Below, in pieces: positions 36,580 to 48,657 of a stretch of 64,000 bases of DNA. The notes beneath the pieces are model-generated. The model did no database searches. It was not told the DNA's origin and saw nothing but the letters and a program-made list of their open reading frames with translations. The number at the start of each line of letters is the position of its first letter. Within the stretch, counting starts at the first letter, position 1. Source of the stretch: Solilutibacter silvestris (GTDB lineage: Bacteria; Pseudomonadota; Gammaproteobacteria; Xanthomonadales; Xanthomonadaceae); assembly GCF_002895945.1 (NCBI RefSeq), contig NZ_NPZB01000002.1, positions 496,001 to 560,000 of the forward strand, given 5' to 3'. The position numbers were made by a program, and so were the translations under genes.

Positions 36580-36956
36580 GCGAATTCCGCAATCCGCTGA
36601 AGACTGCCCTCGGTCTTGGTTCGGCCAAGTACGGCGTGTCGCATTTCGTCAACCAGCGCCTGACCGCGATCGCGCTGGTCTTCCTCGGCCTGTATTTCCT
36701 CGGGCTGGTAATCTGCGGTGCGCAGGGCGGCTATGACGTCGTGCATGGCGCGATCGCGCATCCGGTCAACGCAGTGCTGGTCGTCGCCTTCGTTGTTGCC
36801 ATGTGCTGGCACGCGGCACTGGGCGTGCAGACGGTGATCGAGGACTACGTCCATTCCGGCTGGGGCATCGCGCTCCAGATCCTGAACCGCTTCGTTTTCG
36901 CCGTGACCGCGATCGCCGGGGTGTTCGCTGTCGTCCGCATCGCGCTTGGGAACTGA
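36576..36956 (+). CDS. sdhD: Succinate dehydrogenase membrane anchor subunit
   Basis: A 126-residue three-helix protein that with SdhC binds haem b and ubiquinone. [22 protein letters not shown] and the second-helix [17 protein letters not shown] (haem histidine and the conserved Asp-Tyr) are visible. Its ATG overlaps the sdhC stop by 4 bp and its stop is 4 bp before the sdhA start. Confidence 0.92.
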
Positions 36957-36960
36957 AGAC

Positions 36961-38751
36961 ATGACCGGGTACAAGATCCACGAACACGAATTCGACATGG
37001 TGGTGGTCGGCGCCGGTGGTGCCGGCCTGCGTGCCACTTTCGGTCTCGCCCAGCAGGGCTTGAAGACCGCCTGCATCAGCAAGGTGTTCCCGACCCGTTC
37101 GCATACCGTCGCGGCGCAGGGCGGCGTGGCGGCCGCGCTCGCCAACATGGGCGAGGACGACTGGCGCTACCACTTCTTCGACACCGTGAAGGGCAGCGAC
37201 TGGTTGGGCGACCAGGACGCGATCGAATACATGTGCAAGGAAGCGATCCCGGCGATCGTCGAGCTCGAGCATTACGGCGTACCGTTCTCACGCACCGAGG
37301 AAGGCAAGATCTACCAGCGTCCGTTCGGCGGCATGACCACGCGCTACGGCGAGGGCCCACCGGCGCAACGCACCTGCGCCGCCGCCGATCGCACCGGCCA
37401 CGCCATCCTGCACACGCTGTACCAGCAGTCGCTGGCGCACGACGCGCAGTTCTTCATCGAATACTTTGCGCTCGACCTGATCATGGACGACGCCGGCGCC
37501 TGCCGCGGCGTGCTGGCGCTGGAAATGGCGACCGGCGAATTGCACCTGTTCCGTTCGCACGGCGTGGTGCTGGCCACCGGCGGTTACGGACGTGCCTATT
37601 TCTCCGCGACCTCGGCGCATACCTGCACCGGCGACGGCGGCGGCATGGCGTTGCGCGCCGGACTGGCGATGCAGGACATGGAATTCGTGCAATTCCACCC
37701 GACCGGCATCTACGGCGCCGGCTGCCTGATCACCGAAGGCGTACGTGGCGAAGGCGGCATCCTCCGCAACAGCAACGGCGAGCGTTTCATGGAACGCTAT
37801 GCGCCGAGCGTCAAGGATCTCGCGCCACGCGACATGGTGTCGCGCGCGATGACGATGGAAATCCGCGAAGGCCGCGGCGTCGGCGAGCACAAGGACCACA
37901 TCCTGCTCGACCTCACCCACCTCGGTCCGGAAGTGATCCACGAGAAACTGCCGGGCATCGCCGAGAGCGCGCGCATCTTCGCCGGCGTCGACGTCACCAA
38001 GGAACCGATCCCGGTGCTGCCGACCGTCCACTACAACATGGGCGGCATCCCCACCAACTACCACGGCGAAGTGGTGCAGTTGAAGGACGGCAACCCCGAT
38101 ACCGTGGTGCCGGGCCTGTTCGCGATCGGCGAAGCGGCCTGCGTCTCGGTGCACGGCGCCAACCGCCTCGGTTCGAATTCGCTGCTCGACCTCGTGGTGT
38201 TCGGTCGCGCGGTCTCCCATCGCGCCGCCGAACTGATCAAGCCGAATTCGCCGCACGGCCAATTGCCGGAACATGCGCTGGACGCGGCGATCGCGCATCT
38301 CGATCGCATCCGCAATGCCGACGGTTCGACCCCGACCGCGGTGATCCGCGATCGCATGCAGCGCACCATGCAGCGTGACGCCGCGGTGTTCCGTACCGGC
38401 GAAACGCTGGACGAGGGCGTCAAGGCGATCCGCGATATCCATGCCTCGTTCGCCGACGTCAAGATCAGCGACCGCTCGCTGGTATGGAATACCGACCTGA
38501 TCGAAACGCTCGAACTGGAAAACCTGCTCGACCAGGCGCTGGTGACGATCGTCTCCGCGGCCAATCGCGAGGAATCGCGCGGCGCCCACGCCCGCGAGGA
38601 TTTCCCCAAGCGCGACGATGCCAACTGGATGAAGCACACGCTGGCTTCGGTTGACCGCAACGGCAACACCCACATCGATTACCGGCCGGTGCACATGTAC
38701 ACGCTGACCGACGATGTCGCGGTGATTCCGCCGAAAGAACGCAAGTACTGA
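36961..38751 (+). CDS. sdhA: Succinate dehydrogenase flavoprotein subunit
   Basis: A 596-residue flavoprotein that oxidises succinate to fumarate. The FAD dinucleotide fold GAGGAGLRA is near residue 18, the histidine for covalent FAD is in SHTVAAQGG (about residue 45), the active-site region [21 protein letters not shown] is near 240, and the catalytic arginine is in [26 protein letters not shown] is near 402. The ATG at 36961 gives the standard N terminus ([14 protein letters not shown]). sdhB follows after 12 bp. Confidence 0.95.
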
Positions 38752-38763
38752 GGGCGCGCACAG

Positions 38764-39543
38764 ATGGCCGAATTCACCCTCCCGAAGAATTCCGTGGTCG
38801 GCAAGGGCCGGCATTTTCCGGCGCCGGGCGCCACGCGCATGCGCACCTTCAAGGTGTATCGCTGGAGTCCCGACAACGGCGAGAACCCGCATACCGACAC
38901 CTACGAGATCGATCTCGACAAGTGCGGCCCGATGGTCCTCGACGCGCTGATCAAGATCAAGAACGAAATCGATCCGACGCTGACGTTCCGTCGCTCCTGT
39001 CGCGAAGGCATCTGCGGTTCGTGTGCGATGAACATCGACGGCACCAACACGCTGGCCTGCACCAAGGCGATCGACGATTGCCGCGGCAAGGAAGTGCCGA
39101 TCTACCCGCTGCCGCACATGGAAGTGGTGAAGGATCTGGTTCCGGATCTCACCCACTTCTACGCGCAGTACGCATCGATCCGTCCGTGGCTGCGCACCGA
39201 AAGCCCGGCGCCGTCGCGCGAGCGCCTGCAGTCGCCGGAAGACCGCAAGAAGCTTGACGGCCTCTACGAGTGCATCCTGTGCGCCTGCTGCTCGACCTCG
39301 TGCCCGAGCTACTGGTGGAATGGCGAACGCTATCTCGGCCCAGCGGTGTTGTTGCAGGCCTATCGCTGGATCGTCGACTCGCGCGACGAGGACACCGGTG
39401 CGCGTCTCGACGATCTCGAAGATCCGTTCAAGCTGTATCGCTGCCACACCATCATGAACTGTGCGCGTACCTGCCCGAAGGGGTTGAACCCGGCCAAGGC
39501 GATCGCGGAGATCAAGAAGCTGATGCTGGCGCGCCGGGTCTGA
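38764..39543 (+). CDS. sdhB: Succinate dehydrogenase iron-sulfur subunit
   Basis: A 259-residue protein carrying three clusters: [2Fe-2S] in [15 protein letters not shown] and a later cysteine, [4Fe-4S] in [12 protein letters not shown], and [3Fe-4S] in [17 protein letters not shown]. The start at 38764 follows a short 12-bp gap. The N terminus is about 15-20 residues longer than in E. coli, as usual for the alpha/gamma type found here. It is followed 23 bp later by the membrane-START gene. Confidence 0.95.
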
Positions 39544-39566: not shown

Positions 39567-40622
39567 ATGGAGCAGGCTCCGGACGTCAACGAAGCGGATC
39601 CTTACTTGCCGCCGGCGGAACCGTTGGCGCCGGATCCACTGGCAGGCATGTCGCCGCTGAAGCGTTTCGCCTTGATGGTCTGCGGCGGTATCCTCTATGG
39701 CTTGGTGATGCGCCTGCTGTTCGGCGGGATCCCGGGAATTCCGGCGCTCTTCGATGGCAAGGGGCCGATGTTGCTGTCCTTCGGCGTGCTGGTGCCGATT
39801 GTCCTCGGGATGATCACCGTGTATGGCTTGGTGCCGGAGCGCCGCAGTATTCTCCGCGCGTTGTTCGCGCCTTGGCTGACCGTAATCGGATTCGCGGTAG
39901 GCACGGCGATCATGCTGCTCGAAGGCAGCATTTGCATCGCGATCATGTTGCCGGCGTTCCTGGTCGAATCCTCGATAGGTGGTGCGTTGATGCTGGTGCT
40001 GTTGCGAATGGGCGCGCGACCTTCCCGCTCGACGACAGCATCGGTATTGCTCTTGCCGCTGCTGCTGGGGGGCGTCGAGGCACGAGTCCACGATATCGAC
40101 AGCCATCGGCATCTGCACCGCAGCCGCGTGATCCATGCCACGCCAGAACAGGTGTGGCGCGTGCTGAACGATGTGCAGGATATCCATCCGGAAGAACTCG
40201 GGCGCGGGCTGGCGTGGAACATTGGCCTGCCGTATCCGCTCTCGGGGCGTACGGAGATCACGGCGCAGGGCAGGGTACGGCGATCGCGCTGGCAACACGG
40301 CATCCGCTTCGACGAACCGATCAGCGAATGGCGGCCGTCGCAACGGTTGTCATGGGTCTATCGTTTCCAGCCCGGCTCCATTCCCGTGGACGCACTGGAC
40401 GATCACGTCGCGTTGGGTGGGCGCTACGCAGGCTTGGACGACACGCGTTTCACGCTCATTCCGGTGCCAGGTGGAACGAAAGTGGATCTCGATATCGGCT
40501 ATCGCGTCAGCACGAATTTCAACATGTATTCGGCGTGGTGGATGGATCGACTGCTGGGTGATGGCGCCGAGCGGATCCTAGCGATGTACGCACGACGGAC
40601 CGAATCCGCTTCTTCTATTTGA
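39567..40622 (+). CDS. Polytopic membrane protein with C-terminal SRPBCC (START-like) domain
   Basis: A 351-residue protein. Residues 1-30 are acidic and proline-rich. Four to five membrane helices follow (about residues 30-180: FALMVCGGILYGLVMRLLF, LVPIVLGMITVYGLV, WLTVIGFAVGTAIMLL, IAIMLPAFLVESSIGGALM, SVLLLPLLLGG). The C-terminal 160 residues form a SRPBCC domain (HRSRVIHATPEQVWRVLNDVQDIHP ... SEWRPSQRLSWVYRF ... ILAMYARR). The product is not recognised. It is 23 bp after sdhB on the same strand, so it probably shares the sdh transcript. The ATG at 39567 is used; ATG at 39648 would lose the acidic segment. It overlaps the end of the convergent regA by 8 bp. Confidence 0.72.
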   Translation: MEQAPDVNEADPYLPPAEPLAPDPLAGMSPLKRFALMVCGGILYGLVMRLLFGGIPGIPALFDGKGPMLLSFGVLVPIVLGMITVYGLVPERRSILRALFAPWLTVIGFAVGTAIMLLEGSICIAIMLPAFLVESSIGGALMLVLLRMGARPSRSTTASVLLLPLLLGGVEARVHDIDSHRHLHRSRVIHATPEQVWRVLNDVQDIHPEELGRGLAWNIGLPYPLSGRTEITAQGRVRRSRWQHGIRFDEPISEWRPSQRLSWVYRFQPGSIPVDALDDHVALGGRYAGLDDTRFTLIPVPGGTKVDLDIGYRVSTNFNMYSAWWMDRLLGDGAERILAMYARRTESASSI

Positions 40623-41157
40623 CCCGCTGCTTGTCGAGCTTGCGTGCCAGCGTGCGCCGGTGCATGCCGAGGCGGCGCGCGGTTTCCGAGATGTTGAAAC
40701 CGGTTTCGGCCAGCGTCTCGTGGATGCGTTCCCATTCCAGGGTCTTGATCGAAGTCTTGCGTTCACCCAAGTCGACATCGGCATCGCCTTCGTTGCGTTT
40801 GAGCGCGGCCTCGATGTCGTCGCTGTTCGACGGCTTGGCGAGGTAATGGCGCGCGCCCAGCTTGATCGCCTCGACGGCGGTGGCAATGCTGGCGTAGCCG
40901 GTCAGCACGACGATGCGCAATTGCGGATCGTGCGCGTGCAGTGCCTTGACGCAGGACAGTCCGGAATCGCCGCCGGCCAGTTTCAAATCGACCACCGCGT
41001 GAGTTGGGGGGAATTCCGCGAGCAGATGCTGCATTGATTCCAAGGTGTCGGCGAGGCGCACGGCATAGCCGCGACGTTCGAAGGAGCGTGCCAGCGTGCG
41101 CGCGAAGGCGGCATCGTCTTCGACGATCAGCAAGCGTTTGTCGCCGTCAGTCGCCAT
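40615..41157 (-). CDS. regA: Response regulator, RegA/PrrA family
   Basis: A 180-residue two-component response regulator. The receiver domain has the acidic pocket VEDD (12-15), phosphorylation site D57 in VVDLKL, and T/K switch residues in VVLTGYAS and YLAKPSNSDD. A Pro-poor linker leads to a Fis-type helix-turn-helix (NISETARRLGMHRRTLARKL) near the end, the RegA/PrrA/ActR signature. This family controls respiratory and energy genes in response to redox state. The ATG at 41157 gives the usual length; it overlaps the end of regB by 11 bp. Confidence 0.88.
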   Translation of the reverse strand: MATDGDKRLLIVEDDAAFARTLARSFERRGYAVRLADTLESMQHLLAEFPPTHAVVDLKLAGGDSGLSCVKALHAHDPQLRIVVLTGYASIATAVEAIKLGARHYLAKPSNSDDIEAALKRNEGDADVDLGERKTSIKTLEWERIHETLAETGFNISETARRLGMHRRTLARKLDKQRVK

Positions 41158-42463
41158 TGTCGTCACCATCATCCATGGTCAGCGCTGACAGCGGCAGTGT
41201 CATCGTCACCACCGCGCCTTGCGCAGTATTGCGCGCCTTGAGCGTGCCACCGAGGCTGCGCGCGACGTTCACCGACAGGAACAGGCCCAGTCCATGGCCG
41301 GGTTCGTCCTTGCTCGACTGGTAGGGCTTGCCGAGTTGTTCCAGCATCGTCGGGGCGAAGCCGGGGCCGTGGTCGGCGATTTCGATCACGACATCGCCAT
41401 TGGCGAGGGCGACGTGCATCGCGACGTGTTGCGGAGAAACATCCAGCGCATTGTCGAGCACGTTGCAGATCATCTGCTTCAAGCCTGCGTCGGACACGAT
41501 CAACGGATTGTCGGCGCATTGGTTGCGGTAGTCGAATTGCTGCGTCGGGCGCGTGGTGCGCCATTCATCGGCGAGGTCGTCGAAGAAATCGCGCAGCCAT
41601 ATTTCTTGCGGCGCTTCGCCACGGGTTTCGCCGGCCGATTGCAGGATGCCGGTGACGATGGCCTTGCAACGCAGCACCTGCACCTGCATTTCCACCACAT
41701 CCTGCAGCAGTTCGGGGTCGGAGGCGAAGTGGGGCAGGTGTTGCCAGTCGCCGAGGATCACCGCCAGCGTCGACAGCGGCGTACCCAGTTCGTGGGCGGC
41801 GCCGGAGGCGAGCAGGCCCATGCGCACGATGTGTTCTTCCTCGGCGGCGCGTTGGCGCATCGTCGCGAGATGGGCGTCGCGTTCGCGCAGGATCCGGCCG
41901 ATGCGGGTGATGAACACCACCAGCAAGGTCGCGACCAGGGCGAAGCAGATCAGCAAGCCCTGCACGTAGAGCGAGGCGAGGCCTGACGAGAGATCGGCGG
42001 GCAGCACCACGGGGCCGGGAGACGACATCAGGCACAACACGCAGGCGCTGGTCGCGACGGCGATGATCCAGCTCGATGCAGTGCGCAGCAGGATCGCGCC
42101 CAGCACCACGTGCAACAGGAACAGGAACAGGAAGGGATTGGTTGGGCCGCCGCTGAAGTGCAATTGCGCGGTGAGCGTGGCGACGTCGACCAGCAACGCC
42201 AGCAGGAGGGCGCGGTCGGTGACGCGCGTGCGGCGTTTCAGCACGATCTGGCTGGCGAGGTTGTAGGCGACCAGGGCCAGCAGCACCAGCAGCATCGGCC
42301 GCAGTGGCAGGGCGATGTGCAGGACGAAGTGGACGAACGCGATCGCCAGCACCTGTCCGACCACGGCGATCCAGCGCAACTGGATCAACTGCTGCAGGTT
42401 GCGCAGTCCGGCGTTGTCGCGCGATGGCGCAGGATCAGCGTTCGTGACGAGTGCGATCGACAT
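41147..42463 (-). CDS. regB: Redox-sensing histidine kinase, RegB/PrrB family
   Basis: A 438-residue kinase with six N-terminal membrane helices, then DHp and ATPase domains. The quinone-binding heptad SGGPTNPF is at residues 104-111, the phospho-accepting histidine is H224 in GAAHELGTPLS, and C266 in VLRCKAI corresponds to the redox-active Cys265 of Rhodobacter RegB. The ATP site shows NVLDNALD and GHGLGLFLS. It should sense the quinone pool and thiol state. It overlaps the end of the surf1 gene by 29 bp and is the upstream partner of regA. Confidence 0.9.
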   Translation of the reverse strand: MSIALVTNADPAPSRDNAGLRNLQQLIQLRWIAVVGQVLAIAFVHFVLHIALPLRPMLLVLLALVAYNLASQIVLKRRTRVTDRALLLALLVDVATLTAQLHFSGGPTNPFLFLFLLHVVLGAILLRTASSWIIAVATSACVLCLMSSPGPVVLPADLSSGLASLYVQGLLICFALVATLLVVFITRIGRILRERDAHLATMRQRAAEEEHIVRMGLLASGAAHELGTPLSTLAVILGDWQHLPHFASDPELLQDVVEMQVQVLRCKAIVTGILQSAGETRGEAPQEIWLRDFFDDLADEWRTTRPTQQFDYRNQCADNPLIVSDAGLKQMICNVLDNALDVSPQHVAMHVALANGDVVIEIADHGPGFAPTMLEQLGKPYQSSKDEPGHGLGLFLSVNVARSLGGTLKARNTAQGAVVTMTLPLSALTMDDGDDNGD

Positions 42464-43145
42464 TGCCGGAAGTGTAGAACACGCGCCAGCCGGCGTAGAG
42501 CGTCAACACTGCCAGCGCGAACCAGGTCAGCGCGTATTGCAGGTGCTGGTCCCGGAAACTCACCACTGTCATGCCGCCCGCGGGCCATTGCGGCGCGAAG
42601 GCATCACGCCCGGCGTCGATGAAGTACGGCGCGACAGTGCCGAGTCCGCGTGTTTGTGCGATCGCGGCGACATCGCGCGAATACCATCGATCGTGGGCGG
42701 GATCGTTGTGGCGCAGGAAGCCGCCGCGCGGTTCGCTGGTGCGCAGCAATCCGACGATCCGTACATGGCCGACGGGCGGTGGGACATCGCCCTTCCAGTC
42801 ATCCGGCACGAAGCCGCGATTGACGAGGATGGTGTCGCCACTGTCGCTGCGCAGTGGCGTCAGCAGCCACCAGCCGGGCCCGCGCTCGGTGACTGCCTGC
42901 ACGCGGGTGTCGTGGTTGGGCAGGTAGTCGCCTTCAATCACCACGCGGCGATATTCGTCACGCTGTGCGGAGACGTTCGGCCAATCGTTGCGCGCGGGTG
43001 GCGGCGTCGGTGCAGCATGGATGCGTGCATCGACGCGTGCGATCAGCGCGTGCTTCCACTGCAGTCGCTGGACCTGCCACACACCGAGTGCGGAGAATCC
43101 GCAGAAGGCCAGGGTCAATGCAATGAGGAAGACCGCAGTGCGCAC
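42435..43145 (-). CDS. SURF1-family terminal-oxidase assembly protein
   Basis: A 236-residue protein with a helix at each end (about residues 5-25 and 205-225) and a periplasmic domain, the standard SURF1 topology. LGVWQVQRLQWKHALIARVDAR near residue 20, VNRGFVP near 109 and the C-terminal FRDQHLQYALTWFALAVLTLYA are family motifs. SURF1 delivers haem a to cytochrome c oxidases; some bacteria have separate SURF1 versions for quinol oxidases. Its place between cyoD and regB, 1 bp after cyoD in sense of transcription, suggests a role with the CyoB enzyme here. Confidence 0.87.
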   Translation of the reverse strand: MRTAVFLIALTLAFCGFSALGVWQVQRLQWKHALIARVDARIHAAPTPPPARNDWPNVSAQRDEYRRVVIEGDYLPNHDTRVQAVTERGPGWWLLTPLRSDSGDTILVNRGFVPDDWKGDVPPPVGHVRIVGLLRTSEPRGGFLRHNDPAHDRWYSRDVAAIAQTRGLGTVAPYFIDAGRDAFAPQWPAGGMTVVSFRDQHLQYALTWFALAVLTLYAGWRVFYTSGNVDRTRHER

Positions 43146-43146
43146 A

Positions 43147-43530
43147 TCAAGGCATGTTGCGCATATCGTGCGGCGACATCACCGGCATCATGTTCGCGTT
43201 CAAATGGTGCATCACCCACATCGAACCAGCCAGCGTGATGACCACCAGCACCAGGGTGAAGATCAGCGCCAGCATGTTCCAGCCGCCTTCCGACTTGGTG
43301 TTCATGTGCAGGAAGTAGATCATGTGCACGAGGATCTGCGCTGCAGCGAACGCGAGGATCACCGCCACGGCCGTGCCGGGATTGGCGATGACCTTGCCCA
43401 TGATCAGCCAGAACGGAACCGCGGTCAGGATCACCGAAAGGATGAAGCCGGTGACATAGCCACGCACGGTGGCGTGGGCGTGGCCGCCTTCCTCGTGGTG
43501 ATGGTCGTGTTCGAAAGTGGTATCGCTCAT
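43147..43530 (-). CDS. cyoD: Cytochrome o ubiquinol oxidase subunit IV
   Basis: A 127-residue small subunit with three helices. [24 protein letters not shown], then [21 protein letters not shown] and the last helix [27 protein letters not shown] are the family pattern. The N terminus is His-rich ([12 protein letters not shown]). The ATG at 43530 overlaps the cyoC stop by 4 bp. CyoD assists assembly of the CuB site in the bo3 enzyme. Confidence 0.92.
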
Positions 43531-44171
43531 GGCAGCACGCCCATCAGGTAGACGAAGGTGAAGACGCCGATCCAGACGACGTCGAGGAAGTGCCAGAACA
43601 TCGACAGGCAGAACAGGCGGCGCTGGTTGGCGGCGCTGAGGCCGGTCTTCATCACCTGTGTCATCAGCACGATCAGCCAGACGATGCCGAAAGTGACGTG
43701 CAGGCCGTGGGTGCCGACCAGGGCGAAGAACGACGACAGGAAGGCGCTGCGTTGCGGACCGGCGCCTTCGTGGATCAGGTGGCGGAACTCGTAGAGTTCG
43801 ATGCCGAGGAAGCCGGCACCGAACAAACCGGTGATCGCCAGCCACGCCAGCACCGCGCGCGGTTTGCGGTGTTGCATCGAGATCATCGCGAAGCCATAGG
43901 TGATCGACGACAGCAGCAGCAACGCGGTGTTGACCGCGACCAGTGGCAGGTCGAACAGTTCGGCCCCGCCGGGGCCGCCGGCGTAGTTGCGGCCGAGCAC
44001 GCCGTAACAGGCGAACAGGCTGGCGAAGATCAGGCAGTCGCTCATCAGGTAGAGCCAGAACCCGAGCAGGGTGCCGTTCTCCGGATGGTGGCGCGCCTCG
44101 GTATCGAGGAATTCGTCCCTGGAAAAAGACGGCGTGCCGTCAACGTGCGTAGTGGCGATGGCGTCAGACAT
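43527..44171 (-). CDS. cyoC: Cytochrome o ubiquinol oxidase subunit III
   Basis: A 214-residue membrane subunit with five helices. [21 protein letters not shown] near residue 35 and [18 protein letters not shown] near 150 are typical of subunit III in quinol oxidases. It does not carry metal centres. It overlaps the end of cyoB by 8 bp and the start of cyoD by 4 bp. Confidence 0.93.
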
Positions 44172-46170
44172 GGGCGTTCAGCAGCTCCGTGCGCGCGTGT
44201 TCGGTGTCGACCACTTCATCGGCGGGGATGTGGAAATCGCGGTCGTAGTTGAAGGTATGGACGATCGCGGATACCAGCAGTGCCGCGAACGCGATCACCG
44301 CCAGCCACCACACATGCCAGATCATCGCGAAGCCGATCACCGTGCTCAGTCCGGCCAAGATGATGCCGGCCGCGGTGTTCTTCGGCATGTGGATCGACTT
44401 GAAGCCGGACAACGGACGCTGGAAGCCACGCTGTTTCATGTCCCACCACGCATCGTTGTCGTGCACGATCGGAGTGAAGGCGAAGTTGTAGTCCGGCGGC
44501 GGCGACGAGGTCGACCATTCCAGCGTGCGACCGTCCCAGGGATCGCCGGTGGTGTCGCGCAGCGCGTCGCGGCGACGGAAGCTGACGAAGATGTCGATCA
44601 GGAAGCAGGCGATGCCGATGGCGATCAGCACGGCGCCGAATGCGGCGATCAGGAACCAGATGCGCAGCGAGGGATCATCGAAATGGCTGAGGCGACGCGT
44701 CACGCCCATCAGGCCGAGCACGTACAACGGGGTGAACGCGAACCAGTAGCCGGCGAACCAGAACCAGAAGGACATTTTTCCCCAGAACGGATCGAGCCTG
44801 AAGCCGAACGCCTTGGGGAACCAGAAGGTCATGCCCGCGAACAGGCCGAACACCACGCCGCCGATGATCACGTTGTGGAAGTGCGCGATCAGGAACAGGC
44901 TGTTGTGCAGCACGAAGTCCGCCGGCGGCACCGCCAGCAAGACACCGGTCATGCCACCGACGGTGAAGGTGACCATGAAGCCGAGCGTCCACAGCATCGG
45001 CACTTCCAGGCGGATGCGGCCGCGATACATGGTGAACAGCCAGTTGAAGATCTTCGCCCCGGTCGGGATCGAGATGATCATCGTGGTGATGCCGAAGAAC
45101 GAGTTGACGCTGGCACCCGAGCCCATGGTGAAGAAGTGGTGCAGCCACACCAGGTACGAGAGGATGGTGATGACGATGGTCGCGTAGACCATCGAGCTGT
45201 AGCCGAACAGGCGCTTGCCGCAGAACGTCGACACCACCTCGGAATAGATGCCGAAGCAGGGCAGGATCAGGATGTAGACCTCCGGGTGGCCCCAGATCCA
45301 GATCAGGTTGACGTACATCATGGCGTTGCCGCCGAAATCATTGGTGAAGAAGTGCGTGCCGAGATAGCGATCCAGCGTCAGCAGGGCGAGCACCGCAGTC
45401 AGCACCGGGAACGACACCACGAGCAGCACGTTGGTGCACAGCGCGGTCCAGGTGAACACCGGCATCCGCATCAGGGTCATGCCCGGTGCGCGCATCTTGA
45501 CGATGGTCGCGATCAGGTTGATGCCCGACAACGTGGTGCCGACGCCGGCCACCTGCAAGCCCCAGATGTAGTAATCGACGCCGACGCCGGGACTGTATTC
45601 GATGCCCGACAGCGGTGCGAAACCGAGCCAGCCCGCGGTGGAGAATTCGCCGAGGAACAGCGACAGCATCACCAGCATGGCGCCGCCGACCGTCATCCAG
45701 AAACTGAAATTGTTGAGGAAGGGGAAGGACACGTCGCGCGCGCCGATCTGCAGCGGCACCAGGTAGTTCATCAAGCCGGTGACCAGCGGCATCGCCACGA
45801 AGAAGATCATGATCACGCCGTGCGCGGTGAAGATCTGGTCGTAGTGGTGCGGCGGCAGGTAGCCCATGTTGTCGCCGAAGGAGATCGCCTGTTGCAGGCG
45901 CATCATCAAGGCGTCGGAGAAACCGCGCAGCAGCATCACCAGTCCCAGCACCATGTACATGATGCCGATCTTCTTGTGGTCGATGCTGGTGAACCAGTCG
46001 CGCCACAACATGCCCCACAGCTTGTACTTGGTGATCGCCCCGAGCACGGCGAGACCGCCGAGCATGGTGGCGATGAAGGTCCACAGCACGATGGGTTCGT
46101 GCAGCATCGGAATTTCGTCGAGACTCAGGCGACCGAGCAGCGGAGACGTGGCAGGAGCGTGTTGCAACAT
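44164..46170 (-). CDS. cyoB: Cytochrome o ubiquinol oxidase subunit I
   Basis: A 668-residue haem-copper oxidase core with about 15 helices. It contains the low- and high-spin haems and Cu[21 protein letters not shown] has the CuB histidine and the cross-linked tyrosine, LHHFFTMG provides two further CuB histidines, and [13 protein letters not shown] carries the haem ligands. [10 protein letters not shown] opens the conserved region. The ATG at 46170 is used because the longer frame runs into cyoA. It oxidises ubiquinol and pumps protons. It starts 14 bp after the end of cyoA. Confidence 0.94.
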
Positions 46171-46184
46171 GGCTGTGTTCCGGT

Positions 46185-47174
46185 TCAGTGCGCGTGCGCG
46201 TCGGCGGGGGGCATGGCCATCGGCATCGATTCGTGCGACATCGATTCCTGCGATTGCGCCGGCGACGAGGCATCCTTCGCCATCATCTCGTCCATGCACA
46301 TGTGGCCCTGCTTGACGCAACGGTTGAGGATGGCGTGGTACAGCCCCTCATCGATACGTGAATAACGGCGTACCGGCTCGCGTTCGCTCGGTTGCGCCAG
46401 CACCAGGTAGTCGGCGCGCTGCAGGGTGCCGCCATTGGCCTTGGCCTGCGCGACCCACTGGTCGAAACCGGCGTTGTCGGTGGCGGTGAAGATGAAATGC
46501 ATGTGCGAGAAACCGGCGCCGCTGAAGTTCGACGAGAAGCCCTGGTACTGGCCGGGCTTGCCGATCGCCGCGTGGAGGCGGGTTTCCATGCCCGGCATGG
46601 TGTAGATCATCCCCGCCAGCGCCGGCACGTAGAACGCGTTCATCACATTCTCCGAGGTCATGTGGAACTCGATCGGACGATCCACCGGGGCGACCAGTTC
46701 ATTGACCGTGGCGATGCCCTGTTCCGGATAGATGAACAGCCACTTCCAGTCGAGCGAGACCACGTCCACCACCAGAGGCTTGGTCTCGGCGGTGACCGGC
46801 TTGCCCGGGGCGATGCGGCTCAATGGGCGGTACGGGTCCAGGGTGTGGGTGGAGATCCAGGTCACCGCGCCCAGCGCGATGATGATCAGCAGCGGTGCCG
46901 CCCAGATCAGCAGTTCCAGCTGGGTGGAATGGTCCCAGTCCGGCTTGTAGGTGGCCTTGGCGTTGGAGGCGCGGTAGCGCCAGGCGAAGAGCAGTGTCAG
47001 CGCGATCACCGGGACGATGATCAGCAGCATCAGCACCGTGGCGACCACGATCAGGTTGCCCTGCTGGGCAGCGACGTCGCCGGGCGCATTCAGCACCAGC
47101 GTGTTGCAGCCGGCCAGCGACAGGGCCGCGATGGCCACGGCCACGAACCGGATCAAGGAGTTGATTCTGCTCAT
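46185..47174 (-). CDS. cyoA: Cytochrome o ubiquinol oxidase subunit II, lipoprotein
   Basis: A 329-residue subunit with a lipoprotein signal (lipobox LAGC, residues 20-23), two membrane helices and a cupredoxin-like periplasmic domain. The CuA ligands of cytochrome c oxidases are absent, as expected in quinol oxidases ([13 protein letters not shown] region). The last 40 residues are rich in Met, His and Ser with MCMDEMM and MPMAMPP, possibly a copper-handling tail. It is the first gene of the cyoABCD-surf1-regB-regA run. Confidence 0.92.
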
Positions 47175-47211
47175 TGCGGTACTTTAGTCCTCGCGGCCCG
47201 GTGCGGCGATT

Positions 47212-47224
47212 GGACGTTTTGTCC
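47212..47224. promoter_or_regulatory. 13-bp dyad between cyoA and the divergent transporter gene
   Basis: GGAC-GTTTT-GTCC is an exact dyad about 40 bp upstream of the cyoA start and about 100 bp upstream of the transporter start. Such a site could bind a dimeric regulator (RegA is one candidate). It does not match a RegA consensus that I can state with certainty, and no clear -35/-10 was found beside it. Confidence 0.25.
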
Positions 47225-47325
47225 TATGGCCTCCCGTGCCCGATGGTGGGAAGCTAGCGTGGCCGGTGACCGCGCGCGAACGCGACTACCCCTCCAAATT
47301 CTGGCCCACACCCGGTCCAATCAAG

Positions 47326-48657
47326 ATGTCCGCGAATTCCAGTTCCACCACCACGACCCACGACCACGGGACGCACAGCAGCCACGAGGTTGCCCCGGGC
47401 GAAATCGCCGTTGGCGTCGTGGTCGGCCGCACGTCCGAATACTTCGACTTCTTCGTCTACGGCATCGCCTCGGCGCTGGTGTTCCCGTCGGTGTTCTTCC
47501 CGTTCGCACCCAAGCTCGAAGCCACGCTGTATTCGTTCGCGGTGTTCGCGCTGGCCTTCATCGCGCGCCCGTTCGGCACCATGCTGTTCCTGTGGATCCA
47601 GCGTCGCTGGGGCCGCGGCACCAAACTGACCGCCGCGCTGTTCCTGCTCGGCACCTGCACGGCCGGCATCGCTTTCCTGCCGGGCTACGTCACGCTGGGC
47701 ATGACATCGGTCGTGCTGCTGTCGGTGTTGCGCTTCCTCCAGGGCATCGCGCTCGGCGGATCGTGGGATGGCCTGCCATCGCTGTTGGCATTGAACGCAC
47801 CGAAGGGTCATCGCGGCTGGTACGCAATGCTCGGCCAGCTCGGCGCGCCGACCGGTTTCATCGTCGCCGCCGGCCTGTTCGCCTATCTCTACGCCAGCCT
47901 GCCGCTGGCCGATCTGCTCGACTGGGGCTGGCGCTATCCGTTCTTCGCCGCGTTCGCCATCAACGTGGTCGCGTTGTTCGCGCGCTTGCGGCTGGTCGTG
48001 ACCGACGAATACGCCCGCGAAATGGACGAACACGAGCTGGCACCGGTACGCGTCACCGAATTGATGAAGGCGCGTGGCCGCTACGTGGTGATCGGCGCGT
48101 TCACCGCGCTGGCCAGCTACGCGTTGTTCCACCTCGTCACCATCTTCCCGCTGTCGTGGATCCTGCTGTTCTCGAAGCAGTCGGTGCCGCAATTCCTGAT
48201 CGTGCAGATCATCGGCGCCTTCCTCGCCGCGGGTGGCATCGTCGCGTCGGGCTTCATCGCCGATCGGCTGAGCCGTCCGCGCACGCTGGGCGCGCTGGCG
48301 GTGGCCATCGCCGCGTTCAGCGGCTTCGCCCCGACACTGCTGGGCGCCGGAACCGTGGGCCAGGACGTCTACATCCTCGCCGGCTTCTTGCTTCTCGGGT
48401 TGTCCTACGGGCAGGCGGCGGGCGCTTTGAACGCCAACTTCGGTGATCGTTACCGTTACACCGGCGCGGCCCTCAGCAACGACATCGCCTGGCTGATCGG
48501 TGCGGCCTTCGCGCCGCTGGTCGCGCTCGGCCTGTGTGCGAAGTTCGGCCTGGCCTACGTCGGCGTCTACCTGCTGTCGGGCGCGCTGGCGACACTGGCG
48601 GCACTCGGCGTCAACCGCTGGTTGCGCCTGAAGCGCGAAACCGTCCGCGCCAAGTGA
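47326..48657 (+). CDS. MHS-family (metabolite:H+ symporter-like) MFS transporter
   Basis: A 443-residue, 12-helix MFS protein. [29 protein letters not shown] and [11 protein letters not shown] with the following RRWGRGTKL loop are MHS/ShiA/ProP-subfamily motifs, whose members take up citrate, proline, dicarboxylates and similar metabolites. The first 20 residues are Ser/Thr/His-rich. The substrate is unknown. The ATG at 47326 is used because the open frame upstream lacks membrane-protein character. Its stop overlaps the sdhE GTG start (GTGA). Confidence 0.83.

Follow-up and report, generated by a model that had tools for sequence, protein, structure and literature searches.

A quinol oxidase gene run with surf1 and regBA in Solilutibacter silvestris, and a palindrome proposed as its RegA operator

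The gene run and the palindrome before cyoA

The stretch of DNA described here, hereafter the window, comprises 64,000 nucleotides of contig NZ_NPZB01000002.1 of Solilutibacter silvestris (positions 496,001 to 560,000). On its minus strand it carries a run of seven genes for a quinol oxidase (cyoABCD), a SURF1 protein, a RegB-like sensor kinase and a RegA-like response regulator, and before the first of them lies an inverted repeat that is proposed as the operator of this regulator. The genes follow one another as cyoA (subunit II, 46185..47174), cyoB (subunit I, 44164..46170), cyoC (subunit III, 43527..44171), cyoD (subunit IV, 43147..43530), surf1 (42435..43145, with a GTG start), regB (41147..42463) and regA (40615..41157, with an alternative ATG at 41172). 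By these coordinates the junctions are gaps of 14 bp (cyoA/cyoB) and 1 bp (cyoD/surf1) or overlaps of 8 bp (cyoB/cyoC), 4 bp (cyoC/cyoD), 29 bp (surf1/regB) and 11 bp (regB/regA), so that four of the six overlap. A preliminary description of the region had rightly recognised a one-strand run with overlaps or gaps of at most 14 bp, but the span it gave, 41147 to 47174, leaves out regA; it also passed over the palindrome, the divergent gene for a transporter of the major facilitator superfamily (MFS) and the fact that SURF1 points to heme A, and hence to a possible ba3 enzyme.

The four oxidase subunits all score above the equivalog cut-offs of NCBIfam (CyoA, TIGR01433, with 334 bits against 266.2; CyoB, TIGR02843; CyoC, TIGR02842; CyoD, TIGR02847). 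CyoA has a lipobox (LAGC), and a comparison by eye finds the CuA ligands missing from it and present in CoxB of the same genome. Residues R71, D75, H98 and Q101 of CyoB of E. coli, which we take to be the quinone site, align to R82, D86, H109 and Q112 of the window protein. CyoABCD is a heme-copper quinol oxidase.

The redox inputs that had been ascribed to RegB, the quinone motif SGGPTNPF at S104-F111 and C266, are borne out by the alignment, in which none of the 36 RegB sequences, including two (L148, L149) from genomes without cyoB, departs from G105, G106, N109, P110, F111, H224 and C266. In the window these elements are encoded at 42131-42151 (GGPTNPF), 41792-41794 (H224) and 41666-41668 (C266). 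The best family for RegB is NF033792 (ActS/PrrB/RegB), but with 235.5 against a cut-off of 350, and for RegA, which has a Fis-type helix-turn-helix, it is NF033791 (ActR/PrrA/RegA), but with 169.3 against 250. The pair is best called RegB/RegA-like: judged by its motifs it would work as that family does, at scores below the equivalog cut-offs.

Between cyoA and the divergent MFS gene lies the palindrome ATAGGACAAAACGTCCAAT (47209..47227, minus strand), the proposed RegA operator, and 22 nt 3' of it the -10-like hexamer TAAAGT (47181..47186, minus strand). Between the end of this hexamer and the cyoA ATG at 47174 there are 6 nt, which would leave the mRNA nearly leaderless or place the true start further in, where a TTG is found at 47154-47156. 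An FNR-like sequence with two mismatches (47161-47174) lies on the cyoA start itself.

Distribution of the palindrome and transcription of the run

Two surveys of cyo loci are used here for comparison. The first covers 116 loci, the window included: all 23 from a 79-genome family set and 93 picked manually, with one or a few from each genus, among the matches listed for a 397-genome phylum set. The second, named set takes in 80 SURF1 loci of alpha-, beta- and gammaproteobacteria, 76 of which include cyoB. SURF1 and CyoD were surveyed with domain-trimmed profiles (hidden Markov models), as untrimmed ones caught shadow reading frames of neighbouring genes. SURF1 is present in 49 of the 116 loci and RegB in 34, all with SURF1; in the named set 44 of the 76 loci have a RegB match, 43 of these on the cyo strand. 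The order cyo-surf1-regBA, to which the preliminary description had drawn attention, does recur, with surf1 followed by regB in 34/116 and 43/76 loci.

The inverted repeat ATTGGAC-N5-GTCCAAT was brought out by counting k-mers in the regions that precede cyoA, and the consensus over 76 distinct regB-bearing upstream regions is ATWGGACAAAWYGTCCAAT. When the 400 nt before cyoA are searched for a match at 11 or more of its 14 arm positions, it is found in all of the 77 loci whose run includes regB, a count that is partly circular because the palindrome was found in this same regB-bearing set. The contrast between groups is not circular: 6 of 48 surf1 loci without regB and 1 of 67 loci without surf1 have it, and a shuffled control (one shuffle each) gives 1/77, 1/48 and 0/67. 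The arms TTGGAC/GTCCAA at 10/12 occur in 77, 4 and 0 loci of the same three groups, and the spacer is always 5, other spacers from 2 to 9 reaching at most 6/77. A TA stands at a fixed 22 nt downstream (+41/+42) in 70 of the 76 distinct regions, and a T four bases further in 41. Class II activators bind centred near -43, and the spacing from palindrome to TA would put the centre of the palindrome near this position with respect to the predicted transcript start.

The palindrome is tied in cis to regB, and the six exceptions among the surf1 loci without regB differ in kind; three are the Luteibacter loci described below. The perfect palindrome before cyoA in L139 (genome G349) is accompanied by a 48% identical RegB (L245) some 32 kb from the cyo genes, while two other exceptions (L210, L177) score 11, equal to one shuffled region. 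The distances of RegB and CyoB have a correlation of 0.586, close to that of CyoB and CyoC (0.658).

In whole genomes the site is nearly unique at up to one mismatch. Of the 30 genomes with the full run, 22 have one site, at cyo; among the other eight, one (G232) has a single site elsewhere and seven have none, and in all eight the site at cyo has two mismatches. G349 also has one site, at cyo. Sites of this quality occur in 3 of 14 genomes with surf1 and without regBA and in 1 of 6 of the cyoE type, none of them at cyo, and the reversed control pattern matches in 4 of 53 genomes in all. The strong site is thus dedicated to cyo, but weaker targets elsewhere are possible. Five of the seven further two-mismatch sites in the genome of S. 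silvestris (L240 to L244) were inspected: L242 and L243 lie within long open reading frames (ORFs) and L240 solely within an ORF that has no Met. L241 (G000 C1:400450) lies about 40 nt before the likely start of a TonB-receptor-like ORF, and L244 (G000 C1:1516624) lies between genes and precedes one; each is a possible RegA target.

That oxidase, SURF1 and sensor pair would be made together, as first supposed, is favoured by the tight junctions and by a run that alpha-, beta- and gammaproteobacteria all conserve, and a single transcript from cyoA to regA is predicted. The part of this view that is less secure concerns regBA, which might be transcribed mainly from a promoter of its own and would then adjoin the oxidase operon more than belong to it. 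This is rather unlikely, although it has a precedent in Sphingopyxis granuli, in which an Fnr box at -43.5 and a transcription start site (TSS) are reported before regB (PMC7713065). In the window regB overlaps surf1 by 29 bp, and this part shows no conspicuous promoter- or FNR-like site: when two mismatches are allowed, the FNR pattern has no match between 42400 and 43200 and none near the regB start (24 matches in the whole window against 12.7 expected). A scan for sigma-70-like promoters (consensus, -35 required) found 0 sites between 40000 and 48500 against 1.5 expected, so that it shows no internal promoter but misses the proposed cyo promoter as well.

SURF1, the MFS gene and the heme of the oxidase

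The gene that diverges from cyoA (47326..48657, plus strand) encodes a YhjE-like MFS transporter of the metabolite:H+ symporter subfamily (TIGR00883, 241.2, below the cut-off of 443.45). Genes of this kind are found in 47 of 49 SURF1 loci of the first survey against 1 of 67 without SURF1, and in 73 of the 76 named loci. CyoE shows the opposite preference: it occurs in 33 loci without SURF1 (upstream of cyoA in L123 and L144) and in two SURF1 loci (L080, L135), there on the opposite strand, and in none of the 116 loci do SURF1 and CyoE stand together on the cyo strand. On a midpoint-rooted CyoB tree SURF1 requires 2 changes, the MFS gene 2, RegB 8 and CyoE 9, and SURF1 rises to 3 once eight named rows are added; the independent-pairs comparison of SURF1 with the MFS gene is limited to 2 changes on the tree. 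Since the changes are few for SURF1 and the MFS gene and more for RegB, the former two mark one deep branch, within which regBA varies. There are, in short, two deep branches of CyoB, one with surf1 and usually the divergent MFS gene, often with regBA, and the other often with cyoE. The surf1 branch has 51 rows, two of which (L100, L128) are without SURF1. In L100 (G285) the MFS gene is retained and surf1 is missing. In Brucella (L205, L235) a Surf1q-like gene was seen for which the surrounding 9 kb yielded no cyo genes. On the other side of the run, genes for the flavoprotein and the iron-sulfur protein of succinate dehydrogenase (by eye; window 36946-39543, plus strand) converge towards regA.

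The window SURF1 (Pfam PF02104, 180.9 bits) is of the quinol-oxidase kind, Surf1q-like. Apart from records of its own genome, its closest named relatives are a proteobacterial metagenome-assembled genome (77%), Pseudoxanthomonas (64%) and Lysobacter and Thermomonas (59%), of the Lysobacterales. A histidine before the second membrane segment, H201, is conserved in at least 90% of 40 sequences, which is compatible with heme A binding and says no more than that. A search of solved structures with SURF1 returned a distant SURF1-like protein (7w5z, E 2e-5), other matches being at E 0.04 or worse.

The preliminary description regarded a SURF1 linked to a quinol oxidase as out of the ordinary. This does not hold, given that SURF1 is found in 49 of the 116 cyo loci and that in Paracoccus, as reported, Surf1c serves the aa3 oxidase and Surf1q the ba3 oxidase, both binding heme A (PMC9145763). 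The genome of S. silvestris (2.85 Mb in three contigs) has two heme-copper oxidases and two SURF1, the second in a cox cluster together with cox11, heme A synthase and heme O synthase (by eye; heme A synthase, CtaA, also by PF02628). It thus shares with Surf1q/ba3 genomes a SURF1 beside the quinol oxidase, a second one for the cytochrome c oxidase and a heme A synthase, while cyoE, which belongs to the E. coli-type bo3 operon, is missing from the run.

Heme A at the active site is suggested because SURF1 would be a dedicated heme chaperone of the Surf1q kind and the organism carries CtaA, so that the oxidase is probably a ba3 rather than a bo3 enzyme. All 49 genomes with a surf1-cyo locus have CtaA, against 38 of 52 other cyo genomes (four further cyo genomes fall outside the 52, and a broken copy in G127 is scored present), and every one of the 14 that lack it is of the cyoE-bearing kind. 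Such a distribution fits heme A in the surf1 branch, though the contrast is confounded by descent. A list of clade-specific CyoB residues contains none that can be linked to heme A or heme O.

The alternative is an ordinary bo3 oxidase whose SURF1 handles heme O or just assists folding. In its favour, the four subunits exceed the cut-offs of the CyoA-D (bo3) models and score above the aa3-type Qox models, and the heme O synthase seen by eye beside the cox cluster could provide heme O. Nevertheless it is unlikely, given that both Paracoccus proteins bind heme A and Surf1q is reported as specific for ba3 (PMC9145763), that a Paracoccus locus falls in the same CyoB branch, and that CtaA is lacking in 0/49 surf1-cyo genomes against 14/52 others. 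The division between surf1/MFS loci and a branch in which cyoE is frequent offers a simple predictor of which annotated bo3 enzymes may be ba3.

RegA as the proposed binder and comparison with known systems

RegA is proposed to bind the palindrome because the latter tracks regB in cis and because a related box lies before the other type of cyo locus. Independent pairs on a CyoB tree of 192 loci give 5.3 that agree and 0 that oppose, with a median p of 0.06 that is limited by the number of pairs; the 125 SURF1 loci alone give 4.8 and 0. The related box, GCGRC-N5-GTCGC, is shared by all 13 loci that represent the other cyo type in the family of the source organism (L048-L058, L061, L147) and occurs elsewhere in 3/54 other loci without SURF1, 2/48 with surf1 and without regB and 0/77 with the full run; all 11 genomes in which these loci lie carry a RegB-like kinase (153-169 bits) away from cyo. 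The two boxes have GAC-N5-GTC or GGC-N5-GTC in common and differ outside it. The palindrome has the form of a PrrA site (an inverted repeat, an N5 spacer and a GNC/GNC core), and GAC-N5-GTC fits the published PrrA pattern, YSCGGC(5)GWCRMA (PMC5506826). The Rhodobacter sphaeroides-type box GCGNC-N5-GNCGC is not in excess in the full-run loci (2/78 against a shuffled mean of 2.7). The helix-turn-helix consensus of 77 RegA is ARRLGMHRRTLARKL, and that of two other members of the family (L150, L152), presumably RoxR-like, is ARLLGMHRRSLQRKL; Ala or Gln in the recognition helix is a candidate cause of the difference between GGAC and CGAC half-sites.

Taken together, these observations suggest that the palindrome is the RegA operator and that the regulatory loop is written in cis. 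On this proposal SURF1 would serve CyoABCD as a dedicated heme chaperone of the Surf1q kind, the enzyme probably being ba3; RegB would sense the quinone pool, as well as the state of its own redox-active cysteine, and set the phosphorylation of RegA; and RegA would bind ATWGGACAAAWYGTCCAAT about 43 bp before the predicted start of the cyo transcript and, as an activator of class II type rather than a repressor, switch on the operon, its own genes and regB included along with those for SURF1 and the oxidase. On the far side of the palindrome lies the divergent MFS gene. That the locus is such a self-contained quinol-oxidase module, in which RegA activates its own operon, is considered probable from what can be read in the sequences. 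The direct feedback between oxidase and kinase that had been suggested at the outset gains strength from a palindrome that tracks regBA in cis, although the idea had already been put forward for S. granuli (PMC7713065).

Several observations weigh against this proposal, in addition to the partial circularity of the palindrome count, the confounding of the CtaA contrast, the median p of the independent pairs and the TSS that regB of S. granuli has of its own (PMC7713065). Three Luteibacter loci (L161, L168, L226) keep a 12/14 site before cyoA, ATGGGACAAAGTGTCCTAT or ATGGGACAATGTGTCCTAT, without regBA in the run, their best RegB-like kinase being 29-31% identical. Conversely, two relatives, G028 (L148) and G060 (L149), keep regBA of the module type although their genomes give no cyoB at E 1e-250 and no palindrome at up to one mismatch, so that the pair is able to persist without the oxidase. 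When 369 genomes of the class of the source organism, most of them unused before and an uncounted share of them carrying the module, were searched for the exact palindrome, three matches came up: the own genome; G664, which has a module in a new family and about 1 kb separating its surf1 from regB; and G518, with no module near. The own genome has seven more sites at two mismatches against one for the reversed control, so that not all such sites need be chance, and at least two of the five inspected precede genes; RegA may have further targets. Finally, the loose FNR pattern TTG-N8-CAA occurs before cyoA more often than in shuffled sequence, in 18 of 78 full-run loci against a shuffled mean of 4.2, and this excess extends to all three groups (9/47 and 13/67 in the others, against 4.0 and 6.0).

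That the palindrome instead serves another regulator, or is an element of the promoter, with RegBA merely co-travelling and acting globally elsewhere, is quite improbable: RegA, PrrA and RegR are indeed global, with degenerate published sites (PMC5506826; PMC4263372), and the Luteibacter loci and the two genomes with regBA and neither cyoB nor site agree with such a view, but the site follows regB in cis (77/77 against 6/48 surf1 loci), including G349 with its distant regBA, and its core and N5 spacing match both the published PrrA pattern (PMC5506826) and the box of the other cyo type. The proposal that RegA reads the palindrome can be taken one step further, to a RegA that in this RegBA branch is nearly a one-site switch rather than a global regulator, with its one strong site at its own oxidase operon; the sensor of the quinones, the regulator and its operator, the oxidase and its heme chaperone would then make up a portable closed feedback module shared by alpha-, beta- and gammaproteobacteria. 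This is offered tentatively, and we lean slightly against it. Were it true, so sharp an operator would make it possible to decide how proteins of the RegA family recognise DNA (Ala, or Gln as in the RoxR-like pairs, in the recognition helix; GGAC or CGAC half-sites).

The gene order, the link between SURF1 and a quinol oxidase and the idea of a feedback were all known before. New, as far as the literature searched goes, in which no description of them was found, are the sharp palindrome with its tie to regBA, the spacing that separates it from the -10-like element, the near-uniqueness of its strong form and the split between surf1/MFS and cyoE loci. A search for the palindrome itself (exact variants and written forms), a weak one, returned only unrelated restriction-modification papers, and a term search did not find surf1 and regBA named together, although such a search misses the one-word surF1regBA of PMC7713065.

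Among the closest known systems is that of S. granuli TFA, whose operon cyoABCDsurF1regBA has the same gene order as the window and in which RegBA was proposed to raise the whole operon, and thus itself (PMC7713065). The available part of that account names no palindrome before cyoA, and it places an Fnr box and a TSS before regB, inside the operon, neither of which was seen in the window. Paracoccus denitrificans resembles the window in having a SURF1 dedicated to its quinol oxidase, ba3, and a second one for the cytochrome c oxidase (PMC9145763); the locus of Paracoccus sediminis (L187) has surf1 and the MFS gene, but neither regBA nor the palindrome. YhjE, which is reported as required for an active bo3 oxidase in E. 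coli, has relatives encoded beside cyoABCD, mostly in opposite orientation, as in the window (PMC10588857); the tie of the MFS gene to the surf1 loci observed here is not stated in the available part of that account.

With RegB/RegA, PrrB/PrrA and RegS/RegR the window pair has in common a kinase with GGxxNPF and a conserved cysteine, a regulator with a Fis-type helix-turn-helix and a PrrA-like GAC-N5-GTC core in the proposed site. In those systems RegA and PrrA sites have been reported as degenerate: chromatin immunoprecipitation sequencing of PrrA in R. sphaeroides is said to have given no strong consensus (PMC4263372), and RegA of Acidithiobacillus ferrooxidans none (PMC5506826). The window pair differs in falling below the equivalog cut-offs and in a site that is sharp, usually single-copy in its strong form and linked in cis to one operon. 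Such a palindrome allows two questions to be tested directly: how proteins of this family recognise DNA, and whether an oxidase that drains the quinone pool is under the control of a sensor of that pool.

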